A stretch of 64,000 nt of DNA from Symbiodinium sp. CCMP2592 (lineage: Eukaryota > Sar > Dinophyceae > Suessiales > Symbiodiniaceae): assembly GCA_905221615.1 (NCBI GenBank), contig CAJNDT010000126.1, forward strand, positions 238,012 through 302,011, read 5' to 3'. Positions 12,163-61,628 of this stretch are shown here, piece by piece (the stretch's first letter is position 1; each line of letters opens with the position of its first letter). The notes under the pieces are model-generated. The model made no database searches and had not been told where the DNA came from. It saw nothing but the letters and a program-made list of their open reading frames with translations. Position numbers and translations under genes: made by a program.

Positions 12163-12277
12163 ATATGGGAGTTTCCGAAAATTAGGGGTACCTTGTTTTG
12201 TGGTCCTTACAATAAGGATCCCACTATTTAGGATACTATTATTAGGGTCTCCCCTATTTTCGGAAACTCCCATATAG
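12163..12277. mobile_element. inverted-repeat element family A (GGGAGTTTCCGAAAATTAGG..)
   Basis: About 110 bp with termini TATGGGAGTTTCCGAAAA and TTTTCGGAAACTCCCATA. Inner GGTCCTTACAATAAGGATCC and TATTTAGGGTACT. Other copies: 12484-12593, 18993-19114, 21046-21143, 21511-21620, 43728-43841 and about 58024-58112, plus fragments at 57710 and 57790. Perfect or near-perfect stems indicate recent activity. Confidence 0.9.
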
Positions 12278-13646
12278 GGGCTTTAATCATTAGAATGGGG
12301 GTTCCTTTAAGGGTTCCTTTAACGGGTCTATAAGGGGTCTAGAATAAGGATTGCAGGAGTTTCATATAGGGCTTGAATATAATTAGAATAGGGTTCCCTC
12401 AGTGGGCTATTATCAGGGCTGTCAGGGCTATTATAGGGATTTAGGATTGGGGCCTTACTCGGGTTTACGTAGCGCTTTCGGGTTATGAAAGTTTCCGGAA
12501 ATTCGGGGTACCATATTTGGGGTCCTCATATTCAGGATCCTAGTATTTAGGGTGCTGTATTAGGGTCCCCGATGTTCGGAAACTCCCTTATAGGGGTAAT
12601 GGGGGTTGAGGTTAGAGATTCTAGGGTTGTGGTTTTGGATTTAGGGTGTCGGAATTCTCTTGATGGCCATGTACATGAGTCAACATGCGGGTTGGCCCAG
12701 GCAGGGTTTTTTAGTCTTATGGGATCTTAGGGCTGAGAGTTTAGGTTGTTGAGGTTTAAGAGTTCAGGGTGTATCATACGGGCTATTATGATCAGGGGTA
12801 CTATAGGGTTCGTAGGCCATTGCAAGGGAAGTTTGACGGCCAAGGTCCTGACCCTGAAACCATGGAACTGCGAAGCCCTAAACCCCAAACCTTGGAACCT
12901 GAAGAAGTTGATTAAGAAGGGCGAGTACGTCGAGCCATGATCATCCTCCAGATCTGAGGGGCAGCTATGGTTTTAGTGTAAGCCGACTTTGGCTGGATCA
13001 TTTCGCTAAAAGGGTCCATTGCACTTAAAAAACCCTGAAACCCTAAACCTGAGTTCGGGAATAGGACTTGGGTCCCGGTTAAGGAGGCAGGCTCCAGGTT
13101 GTTCCACATAGGGTAGATCCTGAAGCTCGTGACCCTCCATTCAGAGCTTCCCCGAACACTGAAAAACCCGATCAGATTAAGGGCCTATCTAAAGACATCA
13201 TCATCACAAGGAGCCCTTTAATCGCAGGGTTTTCTTGGGGCTCAGGCAGCGCCCTAAGGAACATCGACGACATCCTAAACCCTACTCTAGGAACTTACAT
13301 AACTACCAGTACTGTTTTGGGGGTTCCTTATTATAAGTAGAGTAATATACACCCGAAAAATATCTTGTTCTAATCATTCAGGCCCGTATATTACTCGGTT
13401 GTAGGGCCATATTCGGAATACTGTCATGAAGTAGTCCGACCCCTTTTGGGGGGGCCTCTTTGTAAACTCCAAGATCCACCTCCCCAAACTCTAACCTTCA
13501 ATCCTCCCAGTTCGAGTGACAAAACGGGAAGAAGTTCAGAGCTGAATATAGGGGCCTTAATACTTAGAATAGGGTTCCTTTAAAGGGGTCCTTTAAAGGG
13601 TTACTACAAGGGATCTATAAGGGTACTATAATATAGGGCGCGTCGC

Positions 13647-14112
13647 ATGTGCCAGGGCTACCCGTGCTGCGATGGCTACGGCGGCGACTTGCCTAAAAGA
13701 TGCACTGTTACTGTTGTCCCGCTAGACTTCAAACCCAAAATCCTTTCGTACTTGCATTCAGACGATTTTCCAGGCTACCGGTTTGCGGGTGTGTCGTCAG
13801 GTTTCTTGCCGTCGTTTCTGGCAGGATGCTTCTGGGTCGATCCTGGAAAACCTGGGTGGGTCTCAAGTCGTTTTTGCTTGTGAGTCCCATAGAGCCAAAA
13901 CATCGGTTGCAATGTTCCCTCGCGGGAACCCAGAGACTCAAATACCCCTTAATTAAGGAGTATACCTTAAATTAGAGTAGGATCCCTAATATGATTGAAA
14001 GAGTGTTCCTTAAGTCAGGGATTTGGAGTCTCTGGGAAGCTTTGCAACCATCAAGCCTACCCCCCCTTCCCAAGAAGTCCTACAGACCACCAGCCGCAAG
14101 TCTTGCGGTTAG
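13647..14112 (+). CDS. two-exon gene, small Cys-containing protein
   Basis: Exon 1 (13647-13879) starts at ATG 10 nt after ATATAG, a possible trans-splice acceptor. It reads MCQGYPCCDGYGGDLPKRC.. through ..SDDFPGYRFAGVSSGFLPS.., with the consensus donor GTGAGT at 13880. Exon 2 (14040-14112) starts after GGGAAG; phase 2/1 matches. It reads FATIKPTPPSQEVLQ.. to TAG. The product is about 101 residues with six cysteines near the start. A family C inverted repeat (13928-14037) fills most of the 160-nt intron. No family recognised. Confidence 0.65.
13928..14037. mobile_element. inverted-repeat element family C (CCCAGAGACTCCAATA..)
   Basis: Termini CCCAGAGACTC(C/A)AATA and inverted ATTTGGAGTCTCTGGG; inner TTAATTAAGGAATATACCTTA palindrome. 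Other copies: 36788-36945 (with an insertion), 39192-39251 (truncated), 49170-49281, 49527-49635, 56632-56800 (long variant). Five of six directly follow coding sequence. Confidence 0.9.
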
Positions 14113-14389
14113 CTTGCCGTTTCTTGAGGACGGGACTCTGTTAGTTGGACTGGGGCTAAAGTATACTTATCATGCTAGAATCATCGAAAATCATAATCAT
14201 CATACGAAAAATAGCAAGAATAGTCAGAAGACAAAAATCGTAATCATCATACTAAAATTGTAAGAATAGTCAGAAGAAAGAAGAAGGAGCCCTCGGGTGT
14301 CTAGTCTTGGCCGGCTCGGAAGCAGTTGCAAGCGACCTGTGGCTTCCAGAGTGTCACCGGCAGCTTCGGGGAAGATTCAGGGTTTACTT

Positions 14390-14463
14390 TAACCCCAAGT
14401 AACCTACATTTCTAAGGACTTATATAATATGTAAGTCCTTAGAAATGTAGGTTACTTGGGGTA
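14390..14463. repeat. long perfect hairpin (family K)
   Basis: ACCCCAAGTAACCTACATTT.. pairs with its exact reverse complement at 14429-14463, leaving a very short loop (about 30-nt arms). Single copy here. Confidence 0.9.
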
Positions 14464-14535
14464 TAAGAAAAATGATAATAAGGAAGCCAACCCCTAAACC
14501 CTAGAACCCGACGGCCTGGGTCCTTGACATTGCAG

Positions 14536-15288: not shown

Positions 15289-15299
15289 CTTTGGGAACC

Positions 15300-19431: not shown

Positions 19432-20101
19432 TGTTTAGTCTGGGTTTCTTTATCCGTCTCAAGCTGCACATTCAACCGTATCTTGGTCCATTCCTCCGCG
19501 GCCCGATTTGAGCTGCCTGCCAAGTCTGTGCTTCTTCGTGTCGTTCTTCTTGAACCAGCTGCTTCTTCTGTGGCTATGTCCGGGCCTCGGCAAGCTTGAT
19601 CTCGATTTGAAACGCTGCTCGGGCAATTCTTCCTAAGCCCTCAACCTTAAACCCTAAAATAAACCTTAAACCTCAAGCCCAAAACCCCTAAACGGGCTCC
19701 TGAGGTAGCAGCCTAAGGCCTGCCTCTAGATCAAGTTCGGTCAGCCTCAAGTTGCACCTCCTTGGGCTTGTGAGCTCTCTCCTTCACAACCCAAGCCGGG
19801 CACACACAGGGTGCAATGAATCTGTTGAGTTATCATCCTAAACTCGAAAACTATAAGCGCTATTATAGGGATATCATTTCGGGGCCCGAACTTCCTTTAC
19901 CAGCTTGTGGGGTCACTCATTGTGATTATAGTATAAAGGGCCCCGAAACCCTATTCTAATTATATGTTAAGGCCCCTATAATATAACACCCCATAAAGTT
20001 TCGTAACATACCCCAGAAGATCCCCTAGGCGTGGCAGCCGTCGTGGTTTGGGTTCAGACTGAAAGCTACTGCCCACGTATCAGCAACAGGTTTAGGGTCA
20101 G

Positions 20102-20200
20102 CTTTGGTTCGACTTTTGCTTCTTCGAGATGAACGTACACTTTCTGAAATCGTATGCCGTTCGCCTGGAGCACCAATCTTTTATCATCTTTTCAAGTTGA
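20102..20200 (+). CDS. terminal exon, unknown protein
   Basis: After TTTAGGGTCAG reads 32 codons LWFDFCFFEMNVHFLKSYAV.. to TGA at 20198. Rich in aromatic residues; strongly unlike the telomeric filler on both sides. Upstream exons not identified. Confidence 0.6.
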   Translation, partial: LWFDFCFFEMNVHFLKSYAVRLEHQSFIIFSS

Positions 20201-20618
20201 CACTCCTACACCCTAAACCCCAAGTCGTAACAGGGTCAGAAGCTCGCAAGTCCTGCAACCCTAAACCTTAACACCCCGTAAACCCTGAGCCCGAAAACCC
20301 TAAACCTGACCCCTAAGATACTTCCAAAGCCTAAACACAAAGAACCCACAGACTGAAACCCTAAACCGCCAAACCTTAACTCCGAAACTAGGACCCAGAG
20401 TAGGCCCTTATTCCCTTTTTTAGGGTACAGGTTCCCTTATAAACCCTTTTGAAACCAAAAATGCCACCCTTCTTATTTTCTAGGTTACTCTTAGGTCTAG
20501 GAAATTAGTGAACCTTAACCCTAAACCCTAAACCCAAAACCTTATTCCCTTTTTTAGGGACCCTTCCCCCTGCACCTGAGACCCTTTCACCCTCAAACCC
20601 TAAGCCTTGTCACCAGTT

Positions 20619-20683
20619 GGGACGACCATCCTCGGACACATCTGCAAGAACTCGATGATGCTTCTTGGGCCGTGTTGTGGATG
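20619..20683 (+). CDS. candidate exon, frame uncertain
   Basis: After TGTCACCAG two frames look protein-like: WDDHPRTHLQELDDASWAV and GTTILGHICKNSMMLLG. Likely coding by composition, but the frame is not fixed. Confidence 0.35.
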
Positions 20684-20816
20684 TTTAGGGGTTCAGGGCT
20701 CTAGAGTTCAGGGCTTTAGGGTTTAAAACCCTAAACCCTAAATAATAGTGTATTCAGGGCGTAGGGCATGGGTTATAGATGGGAAGTGTGGGTTAGCCGA
20801 TCCCCGGGCTTTGCAG

Positions 20817-20845
20817 ATTCGCCAAGAGCTAGTTTCCAAAGAAGG
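20817..20845 (+). CDS. candidate micro-exon
   Basis: IRQELVSKE between GGGCTTTGCAG and GGGTTTAG. Short, so weak on its own. Confidence 0.35.
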
Positions 20846-21382
20846 GTTTAGGGTTTAGGGTGAAAGTCTTACAGCCTTAAACCTCAGACCCTTACAAAGC
20901 TCGGATGTTCAAGCATTTGTGGTTGTGCATGCTTGGGCAGCATTGCATTCATGCGTGTCGCTCTGCTTCCTTCGATGAACCGTTGGGGGGTTCACGTGTT
21001 TTACCTGGGCAGACTTTGTCCACACTATGTGCTGTGTCCATACTACATGGGACTTTCCGAAAATAGGGGACCCTAATATGGTACCCTATCCTTATTATAA
21101 GGACCCCAATATGCTGCCCGCCCCTTTCGGAAACTCCCATATTATGGAAGTCAACTACCCCACCCAAAAAGATCCCAAGCATCCTATCGACGATGCAGTC
21201 ACTCGTCCAAGACATCTGTTTCGGTCCCCTAGTACCCTTGTTGCACTTCTTCATTTCGGGGTCTGCTTATGCAAACGAACAGTAGGAAAACAGATACTTC
21301 TTATTCCTTTTAGGCGCTACAGACCCTAGGTGGTGATCGTGATAACGCCCCTAAACTCCTGAAGACCCAGTCCTGAAGCTGA

Positions 21383-21520
21383 TCTTGGTGATGCTGAGGA
21401 CATCACCTGCCCAGATGGTCGTCGGCGCCCCGGAATCTAAGCCACAGCGCCACGAATCAAGCCCCACACCCTTCACCTGGAAGAGGATCTGCGGAGAATG
21501 GGCCGCCACACATGGGGGTT
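21383..21520 (+). CDS. candidate exon before an inverted-repeat element
   Basis: Open frame including ..VVGAPESKPQRHESSPTPF then TWKRICGEWAATHG, ending where family A copy 21511-21620 begins. A competing frame (ADLGDAEDITCPD) covers the first third. No domain recognised. Confidence 0.45.
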
Positions 21521-21833
21521 TCCGAAAATTGTGGGTACCTTACTTTTGGGGTCCTTGTAATAAGGATCCTACTATTTAGGGTATTATATTAGCGTCCCCT
21601 ATTTTCGGAAACTCCTACATTTTTTAAAACAAAGCTTGGAATAGCGACAAGGCAAGGTTGTTCTGCTCATTCGAGTCCTGACGGGAAGGGTTCTTGTCTC
21701 CTTGAAGCCCCAAGGGACTCGCAAAAGGGGCACGAGTCTTAGAATAGTACGGATTTATAGGCGTTTTACAACAGAAGACTCTTTCAACGGGTCTGTGAAC
21801 TACATCCCACGCCTGAAAGCTCGAAGCCTTACT

Positions 21834-21952
21834 TGGAAGGGCAGGGGACTTAGTAAGTAGGTCATAAGTAGAGTTATAAGTACCCTAAATGGAGTTGCCT
21901 CAATTATAACCCTACTTATAACCTACTTACAAGGTCCCCTGCCCTTCCCAGA
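21834..21952. mobile_element. inverted-repeat element family I (GGAAGGGCAGGGGACTTAG..)
   Basis: GAAGGGCAGGGGACTTAGTAAG at the left pairs with CTTACAAGGTCCCCTGCCCTTC at the right (one mismatch); inner TTATAAGTAGAGTTATAAG. A second copy at about 36590-36712 keeps the right arm and core. Confidence 0.85.
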
Positions 21953-21978
21953 AGTTTGTTGACCATAGAAACGCTCAG

Positions 21979-22003
21979 GTGGTTGGCATGTCGCAGTCGC
22001 CGG
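21979..22003 (+). CDS. candidate 25-nt micro-exon
   Basis: VVGMSQSPG between ACGCTCAG and the strong donor GTAAGA. The frame stays open beyond the donor (60 codons in all), so it may instead be one longer exon ending at 22161. Confidence 0.35.
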
Positions 22004-22708
22004 GTAAGATCTTTGAGGCACACGGCTTTGGCTTTTCTGGAAGGTTCCTGTATGTTTCGGAGGTTGAAGGCTTCAAGTGGTTAGGACTTTTACTTCAGGG
22101 CTTCATGAGTTTAGCAAGCATAGGGCTGCAGTGTTATGAGACTGCACCTGTGCTGTCGTAAGGCTTCAAGGGCGTGCCCTTGGGAAAAACGATCGGAAGC
22201 CCTGTAGGCGTTTTCGGGACTTAGAATCGTGTGAGGACCGCAGCACGCTAAATCCCCAAACACTAAACCCTACCCTAAACACATCCCCAAACCCTGAACC
22301 CTACCCTGAACGCTAGGTGTAGGCTTGTTTAGGCTTTTTGCTCTGACTGAGGCGTTGTTTTATGGATTTGGACTTCGAGGGTCATTGCTGTGAGCTCGCT
22401 GTATCTGGGCTCTAAACCCCCATATGCTGCCAAAGGTTAACCTTTAGTTCCCTAGGATACCCGACAATTAGGCAGCAGGGTTTCAGGTCTGTGTAGCAGT
22501 CCTTGACCCTGCGACGTCAAGTCCCAGACCCTGAATTCCTAAATCCCAGCCCCTAAACTCCAAATCCGCAAAGAAACCGAAACCCCTAAAAGCCCCCAAC
22601 CCTAAAATCCTGCCCACTCCCTCAACCAAACTGGTGTTCTGCACGCTAATGGCTAAATGAAACGAGTGCATTAAGCAAAAACCCTCGATCCCTGAAGTTC
22701 CTAAAGCC

Positions 22709-22812
22709 CACCTTAACCTACCAAAACCTACTTTTTTGTAGGGTCCCCATAAATTCCATATTAGGGTTTATAATAAGAACCTACAAAAAAGTAGGGTTTG
22801 GTAGTTTAAGGC
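22709..22812. mobile_element. inverted-repeat element family H (TTAACCTACCAAAACCTACT..)
   Basis: Termini CCTTAACCTACCAAAACC / GGTTTGGTAGTTTAAGG; inner arms CTACTTTTTTGTAGG..CCTACAAAAAAGTAGG. The right end TTTAAG supplies the 3' splice site for exon 22811. A second, very similar copy at 23733-23836 lies in the next intron of the same gene. Confidence 0.9.
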
Positions 22813-25194
22813 AATGCCGACAAGACTCCAGAGCCATGGCAACTACCTGAGCCTTTCAGCTTCGGAAAGCCAGATCCCCACGCCAAATCTTCAAGACGGA
22901 ACTACTTCTCAGGGTCTAGACGGAACTACCCCTTGGGGTTTAGACCTAGGGCTTCGGGCTTAGGACTGAGAGTTTGCAGCTCAGGGCTTAGCCATCAACT
23001 CTAAACTTTTTGGAATTCTGAAGCCTTAAGCCCAGTGGTCGTGAGGCCTTCTTCAGCGGTGGTGCCAAAGAGATGCCCTTTCTGTTGCTGAATGTCAGGC
23101 CGACAGTTGGCGACGGCATTGCTGTTGGCGTAGTTTTTGGTTTCGTGTTCAGTGCTTGATGACACAGGAAAGGTTGTTGGTTTGTTAAAGGAGCTTTGTC
23201 AAACTCATTGCGAAAGCCGGTTCAACCGAGAAAGCACACGCCCAACCAGTGCAGGAGTTGAATAAAAGATACTGTCAGGAACAAACATGGGCAGTAACAC
23301 AAGCGATCCCTCGCAAGCGAATGATCCGCTGTAAGGTTTAGAGGTGTGTGCCTTTGCATGTATGTGGTCGGTTTCGGATTTCTTTCATCATATATACAGG
23401 AGTTTCAGGGAGAACGAGACCCTAAGACCATTTTTAGGATGCTGATTGCGGCATACCAGCGATGTCTCATAAGGAGCCCCGAATCTTGCAACTCCCATCA
23501 ACCCTGAACCCTAAGCCCGCTTATAATCCGATATAACCGCCCGATAAGGTCTTCGAACATAACATGCAGCCCTGAAGCCATGCAAGCCTTGCGGGCTGAG
23601 ACCCAAAACCCTAAGCCCTAAAGCCGCAAAAAAACAAAAAAACAAAGAACAAAAAATATAAAAAATAAGAAAAAAACAAAAAAAACTACACCCTGCCACC
23701 CGAACCTTGAAGCCTCAACTCTGAGCCTGTTACCTTAACCTACCAAAACCTACTTTTTTGTAGGGTCCCTGTAACTTCCATACTATTAGGGTTTATAATA
23801 AGAACCTACAAAAAAGTAGGGTTGGTAGTTTAAGGTAGTTCATCCCTTCTCATGGAAAACACGACTCCATGTGCAGGGAAGCACTGCAGGGCTTCAGCGT
23901 CAGCAGCTACTGCGAGAAGATGGCCAATTCAGATCAGTGCACCCGACCCGTATTTGGGGGCTTCTTGTGTGAAGCGGAGGATCCAGGTGTCTAGCATTCT
24001 ACATGGGGCCGCGAGGCGGGGGGGGGGGGGGGGGGGGGAGGTGGGTTGAGAATTGCTTTCAGGGCTAGGGTTTGAGAGTTCGGAGTTCGGGGTTTGATTT
24101 AGTTTAGGTTTGACAAGCCATTTTGAAAAGGTCTCCGTCAAGATCCTTGTCATACATTTCGGCAAAATCTTGGCGAGAGCTACCGATCCAAAGCACGCAG
24201 AGCTTTGTACTCGTTACCATAATGATAGTACTAATATACCCCGACCCCCTTCAAACCCTAAACCTTAGACCCTGGCCCCTTCGTACAAACAAGTACAAAC
24301 CACTGATGCCAGGTCCTTGTTCGACCTCTGGTTGGGTTCCCTCTTACTCACCATCGGCCTGAGTATCATGGTGCCTGGGGCCGGAATTCTAGTTTCTGAG
24401 GTGAGGGTTTGGCATTTAAGGTTTGGGATTTAGGGACTATAGGGTGTAGGATTGTGGTGATGAGGCTTTGGGGTTTGGAATTCAGGTGGTGAACTTTGTT
24501 TCTAGGCGTTGTAGCAGGCATGGGCGTCAGGTTTAGCCGCGTGTTGACCGCAACGACCGACAACACAGCTGTCGACTCTTCGTGTTCTGGTGAGGAGAAG
24601 CCTTAATCTACAAGCCTGAACAGCAGTTAAGATAATCTTCAGTCATAAAACCTTGAATCCTACCCAGCTATCCCTTGAAGCCCAACAAAGCCTTCTGTTT
24701 ATGATGGACAAAAAAGATATCCTAGCACCTGTGTGTGCTCGGAAAGAGAGTTGTACACGGCGTGAACCCTGGGTTTGGGGGTTTAAGCCTTTTGGGGGCT
24801 TCATGCGGCCAGTTGGGGTATAGGCATAGGGTTTAGTTTATGGCTTTTCGAGTTAGAGACAGGGGATTGCAAGGTTAGGGTTTGCGATTTCTGCAGGGTA
24901 TTTCGGGTTCAGCATGCAAAGCTTGCAACCCTAAACCCTAAACCCTACTAAACTGTAACCGGGCGCCCGAGCTCAGGGTTTTCAGCGGCCCGAGATTTGG
25001 GCTTCCTGTCCGAACCAGCTCGAAACCTTATGGCGTTCAGCCCCCGTTGTGGTTTAGGGCTTTCAGGGTTTTAGGGTTTAGGGCTTCAGGGTTTGGGGTT
25101 TAGGGTTTTGGGGTTTAGGGGTTCAGAGTTCAGGGATTAGGGAACATCCAAACTCTTTTCCCCGACAGAATATCGGAGGGCTCGGATGTGTTAA
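22811..25194 (+). CDS. seven-exon gene, membrane protein of unknown function
   Basis: Exons 22811-22913, 23877-23986, 24131-24206, 24313-24383, 24506-24589, 24986-25051 and 25169-25194 (TAA). All six joins are phase-compatible. Order: a polar part (ADKTPEPWQLPEPFSFGKPD..), a Cys-containing part (EALQGFSVSSYCEKMANSDQ..), a basic part (..ESYRSKARRAL), then a hydrophobic span (SLFDLWLGSLLLTIGLSIMV..) continuing into VVAGMGVRF, then a polar tail. Donors are mostly GT, with one probable GA (24384). Both family H elements of the window lie in or against its introns. Upstream exons are missing; no family recognised. Confidence 0.65.
24018..24039. repeat. poly-G run
   Basis: Run of about 20 G inside the intron 23987-24130. 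A shorter G run is at 54777-54788. Confidence 0.9.
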
Positions 25195-25398
25195 TAGTAG
25201 TATCCAGGTTTCGTGACCATATTAAGTATACTGCTCTAACTATTAAGGCTCCTATGTTATACCAAATGGGCGGTTGTCAAAATCAGGGTCCTTTTCGGCT
25301 CATTATTATAATACGGCACCTACTATTTAAGGTACCCAAAAAGGGACTATATAAGTTTGACAGCCGCCCAAATGAAACTCCAAGGTCCATCCCCGAAG

Positions 25399-25453
25399 AC
25401 CCGAAAACCTCGCGGAAGCGCCTCCAGACCACGAGGAGCAGAGCTCCCAGTAG
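25399..25453 (+). CDS. candidate terminal exon, acidic tail
   Basis: Reads RPENLAEAPPDHEEQSSQ to TAG at 25451, just right of a family F element (25267-25373). Acidic, polar C-terminus. Its parent gene is unclear, because the preceding gene already stops at 25192. Confidence 0.4.
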
Positions 25454-25454
25454 T

Positions 25455-25765
25455 TTCTCTTACCTTTGGTTTAGCAGGGAATGGAAGAATGGTTCCTTAA
25501 AGGGATCTTATAGGGCTCCTTAAAGGGATCTATAGGGGTTCCTTATAATGGGATCTATAGGGGTAGTTTCTCTTACCTTTGGTTTAGCAGGGAATGGAGG
25601 GAGCCTTATAAAGGGGTCTATAAGGGTTACTATAAGGGTACTATAATATAGGGGCCCTAATAATCCTATAGCTTACCTTTGGTTAGTAGGGAATGGAGGA
25701 ATGGGGTACAAGTATAACTACTATTACCATTCCTCCATTCCCTACTAACCAAAGGTAGGTTCTAG
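25455..25765. mobile_element. family S hairpin plus family P repeats
   Basis: CTTACCTTTGGTTAGTAGGG.. at 25672 pairs with its reverse complement ending 25764 (about 33-nt arms). Two partial copies of the left arm (CTTACCTTTGGTTTAGCAGG) lie at 25458 and 25573. They are separated by the GGGATCTATAAGGG / TTCCTTAAAGGGATC motifs of family P that recur at 12300, 13570, 14620, 53440, 57730-58010 and 61190. Confidence 0.8.
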
Positions 25766-27975: not shown

Positions 27976-28659
27976 GTGTACAACCCCTGCGGCTTAGTAG
28001 AAGTAGAAGGTCTTGGGTTCTGCAGCAGTGGGTTCCTGCCCCGGGCTTAACTTATGTTATCATAGCAAGGATAAAACCGTATTATTCACTGTAGATTCCT
28101 ATATGGCAACTTAAATTCCCTAGCAAGAATCCAGACATTGACATGGTTCAATGTTCACAGTTTGAGTGCTGTTGGGCTCAGGGGGCTGTGGATCTTTGAT
28201 CCTTTGTGCAGCCGACTCCATGGACGGCGTAAACACTCCGAAACCCTAAGCCCAAACCGCATACAAAAGGGGGCTTACTAATTGCCTGTACTATTTTGAG
28301 GGTTTCCTTGTTATAGCTATAGCAAAATGGGTCCGAAAGCCCTATTCTAAGTGTTCAGGCCCCTAAATGATCCCCAAACAGTTCTACACCCTACTATGGG
28401 ACCGTAAAGGATGTTCATTGTATATAATCATCTCGGCGCTAGGTTTTAGCCTGACTGGCCCGCAGATGTTTTGTTGTAGCGACCTTGTCTCGGCTCACCG
28501 ACAGCACCTATCAAGGTTACCAAGGGGCCGTAGCAAATTCCAACACTATATTTTGGTGGTTGCTTATTATACTTATAGTATACTGGGCCCGAAAACCCTG
28601 TTCTAAATATTAAGCACCCTATATTGGGGCGTTACATCGACTGCAGGCGTCGATTTTTC

Positions 28660-28661
28660 AG
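28660..28661 (+). other. candidate spliced-leader acceptor for the BTB gene
   Basis: GTCGATTTTTCAG ends at 28661, 75 nt before the BTB start codon, with no later in-frame ATG. Dinoflagellate mRNAs receive a spliced leader at such AG sites. Inference only; GTTTTGCAAG at 28684-28693 is an alternative. Confidence 0.4.
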
Positions 28662-28736
28662 GGACTGTCACAGTCTACGCATCTGTTTTGCAAGCACAGC
28701 TAGGGGCGAAAAGAGCGGCATCCACGTGCCTCGGCA

Positions 28737-29940
28737 ATGGAAGCCGACCCAGCCGAAGGGGACCCAGGTGACCTTGCAGACCTTTTGGGCGAAAGTGACA
28801 GCAGCAGTGATGAAGAGCCCGTACGAAAGAAGAAGAAAAAAATCAAGCCTCCCAGCGAAGAAGCTGGTGAGGAGCCTCCGGCCAAGAAGCAGCGGGGGAT
28901 GGAACACATGAACGACATCGTCTTGAAATTCCGGGAAGGAACCAAGCCAGCATGCTCCGCATTGCTGCGCTGGGCTTCGCCTGTTTTCGATGGTATGTTC
29001 AGCTCTGGCATGAAAGAGGCAACGGAGCAGGTCATTGAAGTGGAAGTAGCCACTCAAGAGTATTTCGAGATCTTTTACGGATTGATAATGCCTGGTGCCC
29101 GCTGCTTTACGCAAGTGACACCCGCAAACGTCCATGCCCTGCTCTGTATCAGTGACTACTACCAGGTGGACTTTGTCAAAGATGCCTGTGAGGAGCAGCT
29201 ATTGCGCATGCCGGTAACGGTGGAGCGACTTCTGCAAGCACACAAGCATGACCTTCCCAAGCAGTATAGGCGCTGCATCGCATCATTGTCCCTCATCAGC
29301 CAGCCGCAGGACGAAGCCAGCCGAAGTGCACTAGGGATGACAGTGCCAGTGCTTTAAAATCATAGGGCTAAGTCCTCGGGACCCTAGGATGCAATGTAGC
29401 GGCCTAGATAATTACCTATACTATGATGGGGGTTCCTTAACATATTTCTAGTCTAATGGGCCCCAAAACCCTATTCCAGTTACTAAGGCCCCTACAGTAC
29501 AGTACCCTTATAGATCCCTTGTAGAAACCCCTTTAACGGAACCCCAAAACCCTATTCTAATTATAAAGGCCCCTATATCAGTCTAAAGCCGTGTCGACTC
29601 CCGGAGGACTTGAATACTTTGCCGCCAGATGTACTCCTCGAGCTGACGAAGGAGATGCAGGAGCGATTGAGACGGCTACTAGGCTCCCCAGTAGTACCCT
29701 TTTTCCCTTCTTGGGGTTCCCTTATTAAACCAAATAGTAGGATCAAGGGTAGTTCGAGCGGAACCTAGGCTGCGAGGAAAGGCGAAAAGCCTTTCCAACG
29801 TCGTCAAGCTGGCAGAGAAGCTTCCTACCGGATCAGGAACTGGCCGGGGGCTGACCATCTACCAGGGGGACATCTCAACTATTTCGAGTTTGCGGCATGA
29901 TGTCCAACATGTGAGGGATGTGGTGAGCATGCTCAAGTAA
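28737..29940 (+). CDS. BTB/POZ domain protein, three exons
   Basis: Exon 1 runs from ATG 28737 (in-frame stop TAG upstream) to about 29300-29340. It has an acidic N-terminus (LADLLGESDSSSDEE), a basic KKKKKIK stretch, then a BTB fold at about residues 58-175 (DIVLKFREGTKPACSALLRW, ASPVFDGMFSSGMKEA.., DYYQVDFVKDACEEQLL) that would mediate dimerisation or Cullin-3 binding. Exon 2 (about 29582-29674) reads LPEDLNTLPPDVLLELTKEM.. . Exon 3 (29769-29940) reads LRGKAKSLSNVVKLAEKL.. to TAA. Intron 2 (29675-29768) is GC-AG and consists of one family M element. Intron 1 holds a family D element; its exact donor is unresolved. Reading exon 1 straight on meets a stop at 29355, which gives only a truncated protein. 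Confidence 0.85.
29675..29768. mobile_element. family M element forming a complete GC-AG intron
   Basis: Begins GCTACTAGGCTCCCCAGTAG and ends GAGCGGAACCTAG. Removing it joins ..MQERLRR and LRGKAKSL in frame (phase 2/1). Confidence 0.75.
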
Positions 29941-30590: not shown

Positions 30591-30596
30591 TTTTAG

Positions 30597-33712: not shown

Positions 33713-33975
33713 CTTCCTTCCGAAATCCCATGGTCCCAAACACAACCTCCGAGCTCCTCAGCCCACCCCAAGCCCAAGACCCAAAACCCGAACCTTAAAC
33801 CCTTCAATGGGTGGCTGTCAAAATTAGTGTCCCTTTTTTGGGTCCTTATTATGATACGGCACCTAATATTTAGGGTGCCCACAAAGGGACCCTAATTTTG
33901 ACAACCACCCAAATCTTGAAGCCTACAGTCAAAGCACTAGGCTTTCAACTGTAACTCCTCCACCTCCAAAACGAA

Positions 33976-34415: not shown

Positions 34416-35073
34416 GATTTCAAGGATGCTGGTCTTATCTCATTCCGGACAAAGGACACATGCTTGGGGCAAAGACCCTCTTTGCATGGTGGCGGCAAGT
34501 CAGAAAACAGTCGGCGGAGAACTCTGCATGTTTCGGTCTGAACATCTGGTCCATCTTAGAAGCTGCCCCCACCCTGCAATAGTGGTATAATTGGAGTATA
34601 ATAGGGCCCTAATATAATCCTATATAATCCTTATGGTCACTATTACAGGGTGGGGGCAGCTTCTAACCCTAAACCCAGTTCTCGAGAGCTTCCATTTCAC
34701 AGGCTACCGGGTTCAGGGCTTAGGGTTTAGGGTCTTTGCTTCGCAGAAGCAAAAGATTGAGGATCCCTGCACCCCCTGCTTATCGTTCACTACATCCAGC
34801 CTGCGTCAGTTTGACTCCCAGCTCTCTGTGTGGTGTTCGTTAGGCCCAGAACCCGTGACCTGGCATGAGGCAGGTTTTGATCTCGGCCACTCGCCAGAGG
34901 TCGGGTTTGGTGTCAGGTGAAAATGTGGTCATCAGACAGCTCGTGCTTTTTCGGGATTCTTGGCTCGATCTTAGGTGCGGTCGTGTGCTGCAGGAGAACT
35001 CGCAATTGCCATTGCAGAGCGCTGTGGTACGATGAGAGTGGGATGTGTCCACTTTGGCACTTCAAGCTTAACG
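34416..35073 (+). CDS. four phase-linked exons, Cys/Trp-containing protein
   Basis: Exons 34416-34558 (..GQRTHAWGKDPLCMVAASQ then KTVGGELCMFRSEHLVHL), 34679-34710 (LESFHFTGYR), 34747-34916 (KQKIEDPCTPCLSFTTSSLR.. ..HEAGFDLGHSPEVGFGV) and 34994-35073 (RTRNCHCRALWYDESGMCPL..). Phases match at every join (1/2, 0/0, 2/1). The first intron (34559-34678) begins GAAGCTGCCC and is built around a family E element; the other two are GT-AG (36 and 77 nt). CxxC pairs and CHC could bind zinc. No family assigned; neither end of the gene is fixed. Confidence 0.7.
34557..34668. mobile_element. inverted-repeat element family E (GAAGCTGCCCCCACCCTG..)
   Basis: Termini TAGAAGCTGCCCCCACCCTG and CAGGGTGGGGGCAGCTTCTA are perfect inverted repeats; core GGTATAATTGGAGTATAATAG. 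The second copy, 49300-49409, is nearly identical and flanked by a direct GGATACT repeat. Confidence 0.9.
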
Positions 35074-39343: not shown

Positions 39344-40551
39344 AAAGCTGCACGAAAATGCTCCAGGGTGTTAAAAGCCAAAAATGTGAAAATTCATCTC
39401 CAGTCTCTGGAAACGGAAGCTTCAGGGACAGCGAACCCTTAACTGGACGCCCTTAGGGCTTTGGGTTTCGGAAAGTTTTGGGTTTCTCTAAAGGGATGTA
39501 TTGTAGTAAGGTGCATATATGTGCATATAAATTACGAAGGGGTTCCTAGAAAGGCAGGGTTTGGGAAAATCACGATGCCTGCAAAGGGCTCACGTATGCC
39601 CTCTTCTGCTTTATAGGCCGACATGCTTAGTAAGTGTAGGTAGCCCGGGTTTCGGTGTAGGTGTCCACATTCCACAGGAGCTGGCATACAGCCTAAGCCT
39701 CATCTTCCGAACATCTCACTCCTTGATCTCTTCTTGATTCTTCTTATCTGGCTTACACTGCACCGTCAGTCTCAGTTGTCGGGTTAAGGGTTGAAGGCTT
39801 CCTTAGTTATAGGAGGATCTGAAACCCAGCCTCGGCCCTGTGGGCATCCCAGGCGCAGCCGCTGCACTGTGCGGATTGCTGTTGAGCCATTTGCATGGTG
39901 GGGGCCTCAAGCTGGCAGGGCTTCGAGTTTAGGGTTTAGGGTTTCAGGGTTTAGGGTTTAGGGTTTGGGGTGAAGTGTGTGCGTCTGTCTGCGTGTGGGT
40001 GTTGGGATTTTGTGTGTGGACACAAGATGCGAGGTGTAAGCGGGGGTGATTGGCCGAGAGTCTCATAAGTCTACACCAAACTCCTCTCAAACCCTAAACC
40101 CATACTAGCAGACCCGAATGAAGGCGCGGTTCAAACTCGATAGGGGCCCAAAGCCGACGTAAACCCTAAACCCCAAACCGTACTGTTGATGATATAAATC
40201 CTGCATTACCTTAAGGACCCGAAACTATGGGAATTATGGTATATTTCTTATGATGGGTAATGCAGGATTGATATCATCAACCGTAGTATGGGGAATCCCC
40301 AAAACCTAAACGGGCTCCAGGCCCGATTCCCCGTCAGGCCGGAATCCTAAAGAAGAAGGGGTTCCCAAGCCTTAAACCCCTAAAGCAAGGACAGAAGGGG
40401 GCCCTTTACGGTCCCTTTAAAGGAACCCGTATACCAACCTAGTCATAGACCCTTTAAAGGAACCCACATAGAAACTCCTAAACTCTCTTCATCCCTCAGC
40501 CCTAAACCCTAAGCCCTCAACCCGATCCTCGGCTCCCAGGCAGTTTTGCAG

Positions 40552-42847: not shown

Positions 42848-42893
42848 GTCTTCCTTTCGGAACCTGGCTCCTCTTTCCAAAACGGATCTTAGG
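42848..42893 (+). CDS. candidate exon before a family L element
   Basis: After TTTTGAGC/AG reads RSSFRNLAPLSKTDLRG and ends where GGG|GTACTTAG begins family L. The same junction occurs at 46116. Confidence 0.45.
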
Positions 42894-42987
42894 GGTACTT
42901 AGAAATACTTTTTAATTTTGGCTTTTATAATCCCTAAGAAACAGCTCAAATTATATATTTTTGCTAGGGTTCTAAGTTCAGTATAGT
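42890..42987. mobile_element. inverted-repeat element family L (GTACTTAGAAATA..)
   Basis: GGGGTACTTAGAAATA..TTATAATCCCTAAGAAACAG..TTTTTGCTAGGGTTCTAA. Other copies: 46117-46203 (a complete GT-AG intron) and 48224-48318. Short imperfect termini, strongly conserved middle. Confidence 0.85.
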
Positions 42988-43715: not shown

Positions 43716-43970
43716 ATTTTTGTTGCAATATGGGAGTTTCCGAAAATTAGGGGCACCTTACTTTGGGGTCCCTACAATAAGGATCCTACTATTTAGGGTT
43801 TACTATATCAGGGTCCCCTATTTTCGGAAACTCCCATATAGAGGTCTGAACACTTGGTATGGAATTTTCCTTTTGGCCTGTTATACTTCTACGATGATAT
43901 ACCCACCAAAACCTTAATCGAACCCCTACATTAACTTCAACAGTGTGCTGCAGGTATCTTGCTCCCGCAG

Positions 43971-44737: not shown

Positions 44738-45033
44738 TAGCAACACCAGCGGCCCTCTACACCAACGAGCTTGGAATACGGTTAATGATATAAGTCCTGC
44801 ATTACTTTAAGGACCCGAAACTATGGGAATTATGGTATATTCCTTACTATGGGTAATGCAGGATTTATATCATCAACTGTAGTAGTCGCAAACAGCACGT
44901 GAGATCCCCAAGCTCTGAACCTCAAGCCAGTAACCGACTGCTGTCCGATATTTCAGGACCGTGTAGTCAGAATCGATCTTGGGCGCCGGTGCGCCGAATT
45001 CTCGATGTTTTCGGTCCCACAAATAGTACTTAG
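44738..45033 (+). CDS. two exons split by an intron that is a family B element
   Basis: Exon 44738-44780 reads ATPAALYTNELGI. The intron 44781-44885 is exactly one family B element (GTTAATGATATAAG..ATCAACTGTAGTAG). Exon 44886-45033 reads RKQHVRSPSSEPQASNRLLS then DISGPCSQNRSWAPVRRILD.. to TAG. GT-AG, phase 2/1. Basic, Ser-rich C-terminus, no family recognised. The 71-codon minus-strand frame here is a shadow. Confidence 0.7.
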
Positions 45034-46051: not shown

Positions 46052-46527
46052 CCAGTTTGGCACACGAAGTTAGGTCCGACTTGAGTGGCCGGGATGGTAA
46101 CTACCGGAACTTAGGGGTACTCAGAAATATTTTGAAATTTTTTGTTATTATAATCCCTAAGAAACAGCTAAAATAATAACTGTTGCTAGGGTTCTAATTT
46201 CAGTATGGGGAAGTGTACCGTGCTCCGTGGAAGGCCACAGACAAGCTCCTCACCACCGACGGGCTCCAGCATGATGACTCTCTGCTGATCACTAGAGATG
46301 ATATAGGGGCCCTAATAAGTACCCATACTATTTTGGGGGTTCCTTATTATAGTTATAGTATAGTATACCCCAAGACCCTATTGTGATTTTTAAGACCCCT
46401 AGATTAGATCCACTTTGGGAGTTTGGACCATGTGTTGCTTATTCTTTCTTTGGTGTTGCTCTTCGTAGGTCTCGGATCCATGCAAATCATGCGAGCTCTT
46501 GGTGGTCTGGGAGTTGAAGATGTTTGA
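46052..46527 (+). CDS. three-exon gene end, C-terminal membrane anchor
   Basis: Exon 46052-46116 (SLAHEVRSDLSGRDGNYRNL). Intron 46117-46203 is exactly a family L element (GTACTC..TTTCAG). Exon 46204-46299 (YGEVYRAPWKATDKLLTTDG.. ..DDSLLITRD). Intron 46300-46407 is a family D element with GA donor (GATATAGG..GATTAG). Exon 46408-46527 (IHFGSLDHVLLILSLVLLFV then GLGSMQIMRALGGLGVEDV), TGA. Phase 0/0 at both joins. The last exon has a 17-20 residue hydrophobic span. An ATG at 46001 opens another frame (MDNDANVQQNVPKREMQ..) that could be an upstream exon. Confidence 0.75.
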
Positions 46528-47699: not shown

Positions 47700-48391
47700 C
47701 CTGCACTTTCGGACTTATATAAGATTGAGGGTTTTGAGGGTTCCTGATATCTGTGCAGGGCTTGCAGGTTAAAAGTTGTCGGGACACATGTCCCAAGCCA
47801 GGCATACGGTGCGTACCATGGTTAGTTTGATTGGATTTTCTTGTGAGAAAGCCTAATCCGAATGCTTCTTCGCGCAGAAAGACTATGTTAAAGAACAAGC
47901 GCCAAAGCTGAAGGGTTGAATGCAGTTTGCTGCCACACCTCTGTGTGAATCAGGTAGAATTTAGGATCCAAGCGGAACCTTGAACCCTTGACTCGAAAAC
48001 ACAAGAGCGTGTTGAAGAACTAACCTAGATCCCAAAGACCTCACACCCTCGACCCCAATCCTACCCAAAACCCCAAACTTTGCACCCTTTAGATACCCTA
48101 AACCCTAAACCCTAAAACCCTAAACCTCCAGATGTTTCAGATGTCTTTCTGCCATCAGGTTTGGCTCGTGGCGACCACGACTCGCTTCATCTCACCGCCG
48201 CGGGCTCACAGATGACTTAGGATTCGGGGTACTTAGAAATAATTTCTAATTTTTGGTTATTATAATCCCTAAGAAACAGCTACAATTATAATTTTTGCTA
48301 GGGTTCTAAGTTCAGTATAGTATAGTAGGCTCAAGGCCCACCACTTCAAAGCATCATTCGGGGGTCGGAATGATTCGCAATAGGAGCCTGA

Positions 48392-49125: not shown

Positions 49126-49530
49126 GGGCTCGCGCGCGCGCCTTTGCACAAGAGGACCTGTCCAGCTTCTACCCAGAGACTCCAATATCCCTTAATTAAG
49201 GAATATACCTTAAATCATATAAGGGATCCTACCATAATTTAAGGAATATTCCTTAATTAGGGGATATTGGAGTCTCTGGGTAAGCTTCTAGGATACTTTA
49301 GAAGCTGCCCCCACCCTGTAATAGTGGTATAATAGGAATATAATAGGGCCCTAACATAATCCTATATAATCCTTGTAGTCACTATTACAGGGTGGGGGCA
49401 GCTTCTAGGATACTGTTGACTTTGGCCTCGTCGGCCCTATTTTTTCAACGACTTGGCCTCCCTGCGGCTGTTCTCCGTCTCTGAACGGGGGCTGAGCAGC
49501 ATCGTGTGGGACTGCATTACGGCTTGCCCA
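49126..49530 (+). CDS. exons around a composite C+E intron, with a frame break
   Basis: Exon 49126-49175 (ARARAFAQEDLSSFYP) after CTTCGCAG. GA donor. The intron 49176-49408 is a family C element joined to a family E element. The exon from 49409 reads DTVDFGLVGPIF; after the T6 run at 49440-49445 the convincing frame shifts to NDLASLRLFSVSERGLSSIV.. . One extra T would make it continuous, so either an indel in the assembly or a frameshift is present. Without it the frame ends at TGA about 49490. Confidence 0.55.
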
Positions 49531-50206
49531 GAGACTCCAACATCCCTTAATTAAGGAATATTCCTTAAATCATATAAGGGATCCTACCATAATTTAAGGT
49601 ATATTCCTTGATTAAGGGATATTGGAGTCTCTGAGTGCGCCGCTGGCTGAGATCGCAACGACCCGAAGCTGGACCTTGCGGCTTGTAGAGCTGTAATGTA
49701 CGAACCTGATTAAGAAACCCTGTTATAGGCCCAAAATAGTACGATTCATATGAGGAACCCTAATAAAGGCCCAAGGTTTCTTAATCAGGTTCCTACTTTA
49801 CGTCTACGAGAAAGCCGACACGTGCTTCTGCGGATAGCTGTCCACATGCTGCTACCTACGACGACGACGATGCGGTTGTCTCAGACCGTAATGCACTGTA
49901 CAGGAGCCCAAAACCCTATGAAATGCCTTGAACTCCTAAACTCTGAAACTCTAACTAAGCCTCTAAGCCTTGAATCCCTAAACTCGGAAACTCTTGAACC
50001 TCTAAACTCTGAAACTCAGAGCCTTGAACCCCTAAACTCTGAAACTCTGGGCCTTGAACCCCTAAACCCTTTTAGAAGACGTGCTTGAGGTGGATCGGCT
50101 TTTGCAGTGGCCTGGGCTTGAGCCGACCCAGGATGATGCATCGGCAACTAAAAACGCGCAGCCGGGGCTCCTGGACAAGGGGGAGAGCGGTGGTACTGTA
50201 GGATGA
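49497..50206 (+). CDS. four-exon gene end with three GA-AG introns
   Basis: Exons 49497-49530 (QHRVGLHYGLP), 49652-49701 (RNDPKLDLAACRAVMY), 49789-49903 (VPTLRLRESRHVLLRIAVHM.. ..MRLSQTVMHCT) and 50076-50206 (DVLEVDRLLQWPGLEPTQDD.. ..LLDKGESGGTVG, TGA). All joins are phase-compatible (1/2, 0/0, 1/2), and all donors are GA (GAGACTCC, GAACCTG, GAGCCC). Intron 1 is built on family C; intron 2 (49702-49788) is exactly the hairpin T. Start and upstream part uncertain. No family recognised. Confidence 0.75.
49702..49788. mobile_element. hairpin element T forming a complete GA-AG intron
   Basis: GAACCTGATTAAGAAACC at the left and GGTTTCTTAATCAGGTTC at the right are inverted. The intron starts at the first GA and ends at the CAG within the right arm. 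Confidence 0.8.
49910..50068. repeat. about 30-bp tandem repeat in an intron
   Basis: Units of CCTTGAACCCCTAAACTCTG + AAACTC repeated four to five times with small changes (49925-50068). Confidence 0.8.
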
Positions 50207-58271: not shown

Positions 58272-60691
58272 CAGTTCCTTCAGTTCTTGTTGTCGTTGAT
58301 AGAGCCTGACAAAGGATCTTCGACTCCTGTAGTGTTCGCTGGGGAGGGGGTGGGTAAACACGCAAGGACCTAGGGTTTAAGATTCGGGGCTGAGGGTTGA
58401 GGGATCAAGCTTCGGGTTCAGGGGTTTGGGTTTAGGGCTTTCTGACGAGTTCAAGTCAAGAGCCTTTGCGACAGACTCTGAAGCAGAGCACGTCGACCTC
58501 TGGCTCAAAGCCGAAGGTTTGGGACGGGCTTTTCTTTCACGGTTTACGGCTTTGGTGGTTTAAGGGCTTTTGGGTCTAGGGCTTCAGGCTTTTTAGGGTT
58601 GTTGGGTTCAGGGTTTTGGGGTAGATACTTATGGAGTTTTTGTTGCAACGGCTCTGAGTCACAGGGCCTGCAGAAGCCATGGCTGCCGGTCCCGCGCAGG
58701 CCGGGAATAAGACCTATGCAAGCGCTCCGTTGGAGCCGCATGCGTCCGGAGGCGCCGTGGAGCGGACCTTGAGCGGCCCGCAGCCCGCAGAGGCCAGCCG
58801 CCCAGACACGGCCAGGCAGACCGTAAGTGTCCATTGCTTGGCAGGGTCCAGTTTTGAGCTGGAGATCAGCTCTGCCCAAACGGGGTGGGATGTGGCGGCA
58901 CACATCGCAAGCCGAAGTGGATATCTTGCAGAGACTCTCGTGCTGACATCCGGTGGAGGTGTCGTCGAGCAGCGCCAGCTGCTGCTGCAACAAGTCCAGC
59001 AAGGAGAGATCACATACGTGGTGCAGAAGCTTGGCGCCGGTCGTGCCGCGAGGAGCTGGCAGCGCCTTTTCGCGGAGAAGACTCTGTCTGACACAGATGT
59101 TGCTGCCCTGAACGAAACAGTGTCACTCACATGGAACATCAACCAAAAGCTCAACGAGGGCATTCAACTGCCCAGCAGCCTGCAGAGTTTGTCGTTTGGC
59201 AGTACCTTCAACCAGAGCTTGGATGGCATCCAGCTACCCAGCAGCCTGCAGAGTTTGACGTTTGGCAGAGACTTCAGAAAGAGCCTGGAGGGCATCCAAC
59301 TACCCAGCAGCCTGCAGAGTTTGACGTTTGGTGATTTCTTCAACCAGAGCCTGGAGGGCATCCAACTACCCAGCAGCCTGCAGAGTTTGACTTTTGGCTT
59401 CTTCAAGCAGAGCCTGAAGGGCATCCAACTACCCAGCAGCCTGCAGAGTTTGACGTTTGGCTCCAAGTTCAACCAGAGCTTGGAGAGCATCCAACTGCCC
59501 AGCAGCCTGCAGAGTTTAACGATTGGTGGCAGGTTCGTGAACGCATCAGTGCAGAGTTTGACAGTTGATGACAGGTTCAACCACAGCTTGAAGGGCACCC
59601 GACTACCCAGCAGTGACTTCAACCAGAGCTTGAAGGGCATCCAACTACCCAGCAGCCTGCGGAGTTTAACGATTGGTGGCAGGTTCAACCAAAGCTTGGA
59701 GGGCATCCAACTGCCCAGCAGCCTGCAGAGTTTGACGTTGGGCGGTGATTTCAACCAGAGCTTGGAGGGCATCCAACTGCTCAGCAGCCTGCAGAGTTTG
59801 ACGTTTGGCTACAGTTTCAACCAGAGCTTGGAGGGCATCCAACTACCCAGCAGCCTGCATAATTTGACGTTTGGCTACAGTTTCAACCAGAGCTTGGATG
59901 GCATCCACCTACCCAGCAGCCTGCAGAGTTTGACGTTTGGTGAGCGGTTCAACCAAAGCTTGGAGAGCATCCAACTACCCTGCAGCCTGCAGAGTTTGAC
60001 GCTTGGCTACAGTTTCAACCAAAGCCTGGAGGGCATCCACCTGCCCAGCAGCCTGCGGCGTTTGACGTTTGGCGAGGAGTTCGACCAGAGCTTGCAGGGC
60101 ACCCAACTACCCAGCAGCCTGCAGAGTTTGACTTTTGGCAGAGACTTCAACCAGAGCTTGCAGGGCATCCAACTACCCAGCAGCCTGCAGAGTTTGACGT
60201 TTGGCTCCAAGTTCAACCAGAGCTTGGAGAGCATCCAACTTCCCAGCAGCCTGCAGAGTTTGACGTTTGGCAGAGACTTCAATAAGAGCCTGAAGGGCAT
60301 CCAACTACCCAGCAGCCTGCAGAGTTTGACGTTTGGTGATTTCTTCAACCAGAGCCTGGGGGGCATCCAACTACCCAGCAGCCTGCAGAGTTTAACGATT
60401 GGTGGCAGGTTCAACGAAAGCGTGGAGAGCATCCAACTACCCAGCGCCCTGCGGAGTTTGACGTTTGGCTACAATTTCAACCAAAGCTTGGAGGGCATCC
60501 AACTGCCCAGCAGCCTGCAGAGTTTAACGTTTGGCGAGGAGTTCAACCACAGCTTGGAGGGCATCCACCTACCCAGCAGCCTGCAAAGTTTGACGTTTGG
60601 CAGGGAGTTCAAGCAGAGCTTGGAGGGCATCCAACTTCCCCACAGTTTGAAGAGTTTCACTTCACGTCTGTTGTGCGTAGGCAGCTTGTGA
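58272..60691 (+). CDS. FNIP-like 22-residue repeat protein with ubiquitin-like N-terminal region
   Basis: Exons 58272-58353 (QFLQFLLSLIEPDKGSSTPV..), 58436-58516 (LSDEFKSRAFATDSEAEHVD then LWLKAEG) and 58665-60691 (stop TGA), joined in phase 1/2 by GT-AG introns of 82 and 148 nt. ATG 58679 is therefore not necessarily the start. In the large exon, residues about 49-120 (VSVHCLAGSSFELEISSAQT..) resemble a ubiquitin-like fold. Then come about 22 repeats of 22 residues, consensus SLTFG..FNQSLEGIQLPSSLQ, matching FNIP/LRR-type repeats that stack into a solenoid for protein binding. Two units are damaged near residues 280-315. A multi-unit block is duplicated. Function unknown; the minus-strand frames opposite are shadows. 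Confidence 0.85.
59152..60652. repeat. 66-bp coding repeat array
   Basis: Copies of CCCAGCAGCCTGCAGAGTTT every 66 bp, near-identical at DNA level, indicating recent amplification or conversion. The short unit at 59401-59420 lost one codon and the unit at 59607-59640 lost about 8, always in multiples of three. Confidence 0.95.
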
Positions 60692-60727
60692 TTTACGGCC
60701 TATGTTTTGGAATGTAGGGGAGTTCAG

Positions 60728-60787
60728 GTCGAAGCAGTATCTCGCAAATTTGAGGCGCGGTATCTGGGTCAAGTCCAAACCTACTGA
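60728..60787 (+). CDS. candidate exon
   Basis: After GGAGTTCAG reads VEAVSRKFEARYLGQVQTY to TGA, or is cut at GTCAAG (60772). May be the first visible exon of the next gene. Confidence 0.45.
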   Translation, partial: VEAVSRKFEARYLGQVQTY

Positions 60788-61085
60788 GCACATCCGAAGC
60801 CGTGAAACCCTGAGGCTACCTGACACGAGCGGAACCCTAAACCCTAAACCCTAATCCCGACCCATGAGCCAAGTCCCGAAACCTGATCCTTCAAACCTAA
60901 ACCCTAAACCGGGTTACCTAACAGGATACTAGAGTATCTACCCCAAAGCCCTATCACATCGCTTAAGGCCTCTACATCAGCCTGAGTATTCCTCAAGGTT
61001 CCTTCTTATTCAGGCCTCTATGGCTATCTGATGGTCCCTAAATACCTAAACCCTGAACCCTAAACCCTCTGCAGCTGCCTGATAG

Positions 61086-61628
61086 GTCATGCCTCCAGAC
61101 ATTGGGAAGATCTTCGTTGCCATGCACGAGATGGAGTGGTTCAAGGATTGGGCTGGTCCTACGCCTGACAGTGGAGTCTTATTGATCCCTTAAGGGTTCC
61201 TATAAAGGATCTATAAGGGGTTCTATAAAGGGGTTTGGGGTTTTGGGGTCTGGGGCTTTAGGGTTTAGTGTCTGGGGGTTTAGGGTTTTTGGGTTTAGGG
61301 CTCAGGCGTTTAGGCTACCTCTATTCACCCAGTACCGAAGAACCCGTTCATTGAAATGGAAGCCCAGTACACTACAAGCTACTGGAAGCGGTGTTTTGCC
61401 AGAGTTATGGGATTGGGATCCAGTAGAAGCCTAAAAGTTGGAAACCCGACGGCCTCAATCCCTAAGAGAAAAGTATAGGGAATCCCAGCACGATTTGTCC
61501 TTCATTAGGTTTCCAACTTTTTGGAGTTTACAGTAGATGAGGAGCACAGGATAATCGGGCTAAGGCGCTGCAGAGGTTCTAGAAATGTCGGATACATTGT
61601 GCCATACCACAATTCTGAAGCCCTGTAA
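61086..61628 (+). CDS. three-exon gene end, unknown protein
   Basis: Exon 61086 onward reads VMPPDIGKIFVAMHEMEWFK then DWAGPTPDSG, with a GT or GA donor near 61160-61175 (reading through stops at 61191). Exon 61314-61428 (ATSIHPVPKNPFIEMEAQYT then TSYWKRCFARVMGLGSS) ends at a GC donor. The intron 61429-61536 is a family G element. Exon 61537-61628 (EEHRIIGLRRCRGSRNVGYI then VPYHNSEAL), TAA. Phase 1/2 matches. Upstream exons uncertain. Confidence 0.7.

Follow-up and report, generated by a model that had tools for sequence, protein, structure and literature searches.

Introners, similar elements that make up whole introns in unrelated genes, have been described in dinoflagellates as recently active and as falling into many families (Roy et al. 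2023, as described in PMC11453091), and the section of PMC11453091 on Polarella glacialis counts 12,253 introner introns, with 15 families of at least 100 each. The relevant part of Gozashti et al. 2022 (PMC9860276) deals with introners bearing the signatures of terminal inverted repeats (TIRs) and target-site duplications (TSDs), in which the 3' splice site lies in the element and the 5' site comes from the duplication. In the part of Farhat et al. 2021 (PMC7789003) devoted to them, the introner elements of Amoebophrya have inverted repeats of 8-20 nt and border direct repeats of 3-5 nt; excerpted accounts also mention introns with inverted repeats at both ends in Prorocentrum cordatum and introner elements in 5% of the genes of Effrenium voratum. 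Here we analyse 64,000 nucleotides (the window) from Symbiodinium sp. CCMP2592, at the end of contig CAJNDT010000126.1 (C126), within an assembly of 1.098 Gb and 5383 contigs. The window is very probably full of several classes of short non-autonomous DNA elements with TIRs, that is, miniature inverted-repeat transposable elements (MITEs), of which two families, i2 and F8, appear able to act as introners. As a class, MITEs measure about 100 bp, end in inverted repeats, make short target duplications, encode nothing and occur in thousands of copies. An earlier, sequence-only reading of the window had proposed an introner system for the whole collection of repeats; the proposal is supported for i2 and F8, whose excision restores reading frames exactly, and not beyond them. 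Our verdict, drawn from sequence comparison, is thus of apparently genuine introners among many ordinary MITEs, an example of a known but rarely caught route of genomic intron gain that bears on the long-standing question of the origin of new introns.

Both families have 5'-CT...AG-3' ends and 4-bp target duplications, and both would follow one splice rule. A copy of i2 or F8, probably moved by a transposase acting in trans, would insert into an exon at a 4-mer beginning with GT or GC; the left target copy would then serve as 5' splice site, and the 3' AG would come from the element's final two bases. Splicing, probably by the spliceosome, would take out the element together with one target copy and give back the codons that preceded the insertion. 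Read directly from the DNA are the elements, their duplications, the frame-exact restoration of protein domains and the existence of paralogs free of the introns.

The case inside the window lies in a gene with a BTB domain (Table 1). Excision of 29310-29606 and 29675-29768 yields a single in-frame protein that aligns with BTB paralogs, and in 17 of the 19 paralogs the reading frame stays open through the positions of both introns; the window gene carries introns that its relatives lack. Homology with the paralogs is clear at the site of intron 1 and weaker beyond that of intron 2, the best alignments spanning the latter having E values of 0.007 (locus L027) and 0.085 (L014). Intron 2 is an i2 copy that is missing part of the family's 3' half and is bordered by GCTA on the left and GCTG on the right; its 5' GC comes from the left target copy and its 3' AG is the element end, CCTAG. 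On these comparisons, 29675-29768 is confirmed as an intron formed by an i2 copy. It is the only one to be established among six elements that had been proposed as whole introns, the other five starting at 44781, 46117, 46300, 49702 and 61429.

The F8 consensus is 99 bp long (CTTAGGGG...GTATAG), and its 20-base start has 2036 exact matches in the genome. Among copies picked for a target beginning with GT or GC, two split recognisable domains. In L028, a BTB paralog, a copy with target GCAA interrupts the conserved BTB domain, and excising the element with one target copy gives VAVATKQDFESFYALL, consistent with the paralogs. In L099, a copy with target GTTG splits an ankyrin repeat, and excision joins GHVEVARL to LLEAGAD (Pfam Ank_2, 9.4e-13), the next ankyrin repeat after the join being GHVEVARLLLEAGAE. 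Frame and domain are kept in both, so that insertion and excision leave the coding sequence unchanged; with the i2 intron of the window BTB gene, they are, as read from the sequence, similar elements standing as whole introns in unrelated genes. Two further copies from the same selection, in L098 (target GTTT, within a weakly ubiquitin-like stretch whose Pfam value of 0.016 falls short of the curated cut-off) and in L103 (targets GCAC/GTAC, within a coding-like stretch that has no Pfam match), are probably also whole introns. In all four loci stops are introduced if the element is retained. Five of the 36 joins scored for F8 copies with GT or GC targets exceed the 99% coding null and three exceed the 99.9% null, copies with an unrecognisable end having been left out (1/20 and 3/20 in the two GT/GC sets, 3/20 in an unselected set). 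An exact 4-bp duplication was found in 10 of the 17 unselected copies.

Full i2 members are 111-112 bp long with ends CTAGGTTCC...GGAACCTAG. A first look at the genome gave 2046 candidates, 40 of which were scored, and an exact pattern for the core matched at 217 places. An exact 4-bp duplication is present at 12 of 27 copies, where 0.9 would be expected (two of the 27 being the same site), and at 11 of 27 in a second set, where 0.8 would be. In L006 and L080 an i2 copy is inserted in another repeat family whose consensus, read by eye, shows the empty site. Two copies on contig C11 are identical over 111 bp, and five others (L080 and L082-L085) show no difference over 112 bp while each has an exact 4-bp duplication of its own, a sign of recent movement. 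Three copies (L074, L075 and L086) have flanking direct repeats of about 22 bp (one mismatch), 10 bp (one mismatch) and 13 bp rather than 4, perhaps as a result of repair after insertion.

The two families also share a property that we would not associate with MITEs in general, which the present elements resemble in size, ends and duplications: copies of F8 and i2, and in part of F0, are oriented coherently along contigs. The following strand counts refer to listed copies, that is, for each pattern, the 100 places that come first in contig order, which are not a random sample. Of 61 pairs of neighbouring F8 copies on a contig, 58 lie on the same strand, and 16 of the 18 contigs with at least two copies are uniform; a separate listing of F8 copies with GT or GC targets gave a weaker signal (15/19). 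Neighbouring i2 copies agree in 19 of 22 pairs, and when i2 is compared with the closest F8 copy listed, the two are on the same strand in 35 of 37 cases, spread over 30 contigs (p 1e-8), although the ends of i2 are symmetric. For F0, 27 of 40 neighbours are on the same strand and 41 of 53 copies match the F8 strand. No clear bias was seen in F2, a family of the same size: neighbours agree in 43 of 72 pairs (p 0.12), with the nearest F8 copy in 34 of 63 cases and with the F8 majority in 31 of 59, while the five comparisons with i2, all on C11, agree. BTB and HSP90 genes agree with the F8 strand in 7 of 7 cases, two of the seven coming from a single small region that surrounds a gene carrying F8. 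With the strand of the genes as reference, in the window and at gene loci, sense and antisense copies number 7 and 0 for F8, 21 and 8 for F0, 9 and 6 for F2, and 1 and 6 for F10. Local duplication as the cause of the F8 coherence is ruled out in a sample of up to 60 copies, whose flanks are unrelated with the exception of one pair.

Because clusters of genes on the same strand are reported for dinoflagellates (abstract of PMC7789003), F8 and i2 are most simply read as pointing along transcription. The bias could then arise in either of two ways, by insertion polarised by transcription or by the survival only of sense copies that are harmlessly spliced. Since recognisable exons do not contain most of the sampled copies, either insertion would have to be polarised or antisense copies would have to be removed from transcribed non-coding DNA. 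It is a tentative proposal, to which we give somewhat less than an even chance, that a population of DNA transposons takes its orientation from transcription. F2, with its mixed strands and 2-bp duplications, appears as an ordinary MITE would; because it lacks a strand bias, there may be a split between splice-tolerated and ordinary MITEs within one genome. The coexistence in one genome of splice-rule families oriented together along contigs and an unoriented family of the same size makes it testable whether introns are gained through the insertion machinery or through selection on splicing, and the filled and empty BTB and ankyrin sites offer natural cases for such a test. Our search of the literature, which did not extend to Roy et al. 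2023 itself, found nothing on such polarity of elements. The method given in Gozashti et al. (PMC9860276) permits either orientation, whereas F8 and i2 here have largely one orientation per contig; the same text reports gene enrichment in 161 of 175 genomes, in contrast to the position of most sampled copies here. The Amoebophrya elements resemble ours in their inverted and direct repeats and differ in being, in the part of PMC7789003 that treats them, mostly introns with non-canonical splice motifs, compared with GT/GC...AG here. Likeness to the dinoflagellate introners of Roy et al. 2023, as described in PMC11453091, lies in recent activity and the number of families, and is a likeness of description rather than of family sequences. 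We file the present elements as a further case of the known kind; should this genome be among the five of Roy et al. 2023, its introners would already be known, the polarity perhaps excepted.

Several observations weigh against introner activity by i2 and F8 or limit how common it can be. The target duplication of the window intron agrees in only three of four bases. None of the 17 unselected, scorable F8 copies passed the null for coding joins or lay in a recognisable exon, nor did any of 19 i2 copies at the 99% null, and most sampled copies are not introns by the splice rule. Targets beginning with GT or GC account for 13 of the first 100 F8 copies listed, as expected by chance (1 in 8; p 0.88), and there is therefore no excess of splice-competent sites. 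The paralogs that lack the introns could in part be retrocopies. At the HSP90 loci, those on the minus strand being viewed in contig orientation, the short introns displayed did not, by eye, resemble these elements. Within the window, element flanks have a median coding score of 4.05 against 3.81 at random positions, with 8% and 4% of scores above 8, and in-frame coding joins above the 95% null were found for 4 of 73 elements. The flanks thus show little or no excess of coding sequence, which is largely the test that the sequence-only reading had named as able to refute its proposal, while strands follow the few genes compared. The join score, for its part, overlooks exons that are short, the confirmed intron of the window reaching 12.7 where the 99% cut is 15.5, so insertions into exons are undercounted.

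These figures bear most directly on the idea of a pervasive introner system in which most families, or even all of them, form introns. The 4 in 73 are close to the chance rate, the flank scores are near random, F2 has mixed strands, and the absence of unselected F8 and i2 copies from recognisable exons counts the same way within the limits of the score; set against coding-like flanks at 46300 and 49702 and borderline in-frame joins at 46300, 49527 and 49702, they leave so general a system improbable. At the other extreme, the elements could be ordinary MITEs only, lying in pre-existing introns or broken genes, with any coincidence of element and intron fortuitous. Most sampled copies are where such MITEs would be, and intron 1 of the BTB gene is composite, containing elements instead of being one that became an intron. 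However, an ankyrin repeat and a BTB domain become whole again, with no gap, when F8 is excised at its duplication, and retention brings stops, which makes this account very improbable.

A propagation through RNA, by reverse splicing followed by reverse transcription, would explain sense orientation and is in keeping with the strand that F8 and i2 have in common along contigs and that matches the small number of genes compared, but 4-bp target duplications, inverted-repeat ends and insertion into other repeats and non-exonic sites all speak for DNA, and we consider it highly unlikely. Least likely of those weighed is intron loss, in which the introns are old and the paralogs are retrocopies. 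The 429 dispersed copies of the spliced leader (see below) suggest that retrocopies may be many, but the intron is a member of a repeat family at a target duplication, the L028 intron is placed differently from that of the window gene, and the paralogs read across. Insertion of i2 and F8 as DNA elements that can then be spliced is the reading we retain.

The wider collection in the window was delimited by self-BLAST clustering, which produced 34 clusters, of which 29 had at least two members. Among these 29 we counted 13 as dispersed elements; the others were tandem or telomere-like, or were left unexamined. These 13 families comprise 73 copies, 51 of them 95-120 bp long, so the many dispersed inverted-repeat elements of the sequence-only reading are there, at around 100 bp, while its count of more than 20 families did not recur in that form. 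Its uniformly low divergence did not hold, median pairwise identity being 67-90% in window families with at least three copies, yet identical i2 copies exist elsewhere in the genome. Long inverted-repeat ends are found in many elements; a scan for inverted repeats counted 116 of them in the window, whereas two shuffled versions gave 27 and 19, and a de novo scan of 226 kb of sequence gave 94 elements of 75-150 bp with a peak at 105-115 bp. The length of the target duplication is fixed by family. Duplications of 2 bp flank 13 of 17 F2 copies (3.6 expected), 6 of 6 F3 copies (1.3 expected) and 6 of 7 F5 copies (1.7 expected); F4 and F10 have TA-like flanks, of a kind that shuffling is unable to test; F9 has a 6-bp duplication in 1 of 6 copies and an 8-bp one in 2 of 6; and F0 has a target duplication in none of 20 copies at the chosen boundary. 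Because the duplications differ between families, several transposon classes seem to be present rather than one system. Fifteen family representatives are all 92-133 bp long although their duplications vary (2, 4, up to 8 bp), which suggests a shared limit on size. When representatives were compared for a possible central core in common, 27 of 105 pairs reached p <= 0.01 against shuffled cores, a signal that composition and TTTAGGG-like background sequence make too weak for any claim. Two near-identical inverted-repeat elements at 3855 and 4477 in L009, 622 bp apart with the same flanks, are a local duplication; duplicate array loci were excluded from the inverted-repeat scan and the duplication counts.

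Table 1. Coordinates of the BTB gene, its introns and dispersed elements in the window
Feature	Position	Strand	Remarks
BTB-domain gene, exon 1	28737..29309	+	Pfam BTB 4.2e-10; 5.6e-11 in spliced protein; paralogs
BTB gene intron 1, GA...AG, composite	29310..29606	+	two elements within
F0 element within BTB intron 1	29389..29494	+	
F1 element within BTB intron 1	29490..29578	-	
BTB gene, exon 2	29607..29674	+	
BTB gene intron 2, GC...AG	29675..29768	+	i2 copy with internal deletion
BTB gene, exon 3	29769..29940	+	includes stop codon
F8 element	42888..42986	+	
F8 element	46110..46208	+	target duplication GGAA, mutated 3' end; previously proposed intron 46117-46203, splicing not supported
F8 element	48222..48320	+	5' end degraded
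F4 element	44779..44879	-	TA each side; previously proposed intron 44781-44885, splicing putative
F0 element	46302..46403	+	coding-like flanks; previously proposed intron 46300-46407, splicing putative
F16 element	49702..49788	.	second copy in L006; coding-like flanks, splicing putative
F7 element	61421..61533	+	previously proposed intron 61429-61536, splicing putative
F2 element	12166..12272	+	2-bp (TA) duplication
F2 element	43731..43836	+	2-bp (TA) duplication
F2 element	21513..21617	+	2-bp (CA) duplication
F3 element	49172..49280	-	2-bp (TA) duplication
F3 element	49527..49635	-	2-bp (TG) duplication
F4 element	8871..8971	+	TA each side
F4 element	40183..40283	-	TA each side
F5 element	33808..33911	+	2-bp (AA) duplication
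F9 element	34556..34666	.	
F9 element	49298..49408	.	6-bp flanking direct repeat, one-base offset
F11 element	23733..23835	.	TA each side

For the five other candidate introns, codon usage was the sole basis of the test. The fraction of random positions with a flank score as high is 0.011 at 46300 and 0.005 at 49702, compared with 0.39 at 44781, 0.26 at 46117 and 0.36 at 61429; the corresponding values for the best in-frame join are 0.03, 0.05, 0.11, 0.29 and 0.26, and on the minus strand 0.02 at 46300 and 0.07 at 49702. The join test is a weak one, as at the confirmed intron it gave 0.02 but picked the wrong junctions. The F8 copy at 46117, having a GGAA target and a 3' end mutated to TATGG with the terminal AG gone, is for these reasons without the splice sites of the F8 introns found here. 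A spliced reading over 49522-49788 matched only itself in the genome.

The host is a dinoflagellate, because the 21-mer of the dinoflagellate spliced leader has 429 exact matches in the genome against 0 for the reversed control and HSP90 copies form same-strand tandem arrays, on C325 and C1335. The 21-mers are dispersed over the genome, as expected from many reinserted mRNA copies. Pfam scans of the plus strand of the window (1-9000, 20001-25500, 28501-31000 and 39001-64000) matched BTB, FNIP/leucine-rich repeats and, marginally, ShK (21.1 bits, cut-off 20.9), the last in a shadow frame of the repeat. Nothing else exceeded the cut-off in these stretches, and codon usage is therefore the sole basis of the other gene models in the window. 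At the contig end (62750-64000) the GC content drops from about 0.5 to 0.20-0.36, unlike the remaining window, and this tail is possibly foreign or misjoined. A tandem repeat with a spacing of about 694 bp occupies 6-2311 (copies at 302, 996 and 1690), and an uninterrupted open frame of 677 amino acids with 22-residue FNIP/leucine-rich repeats extends from 58658 to 60691.

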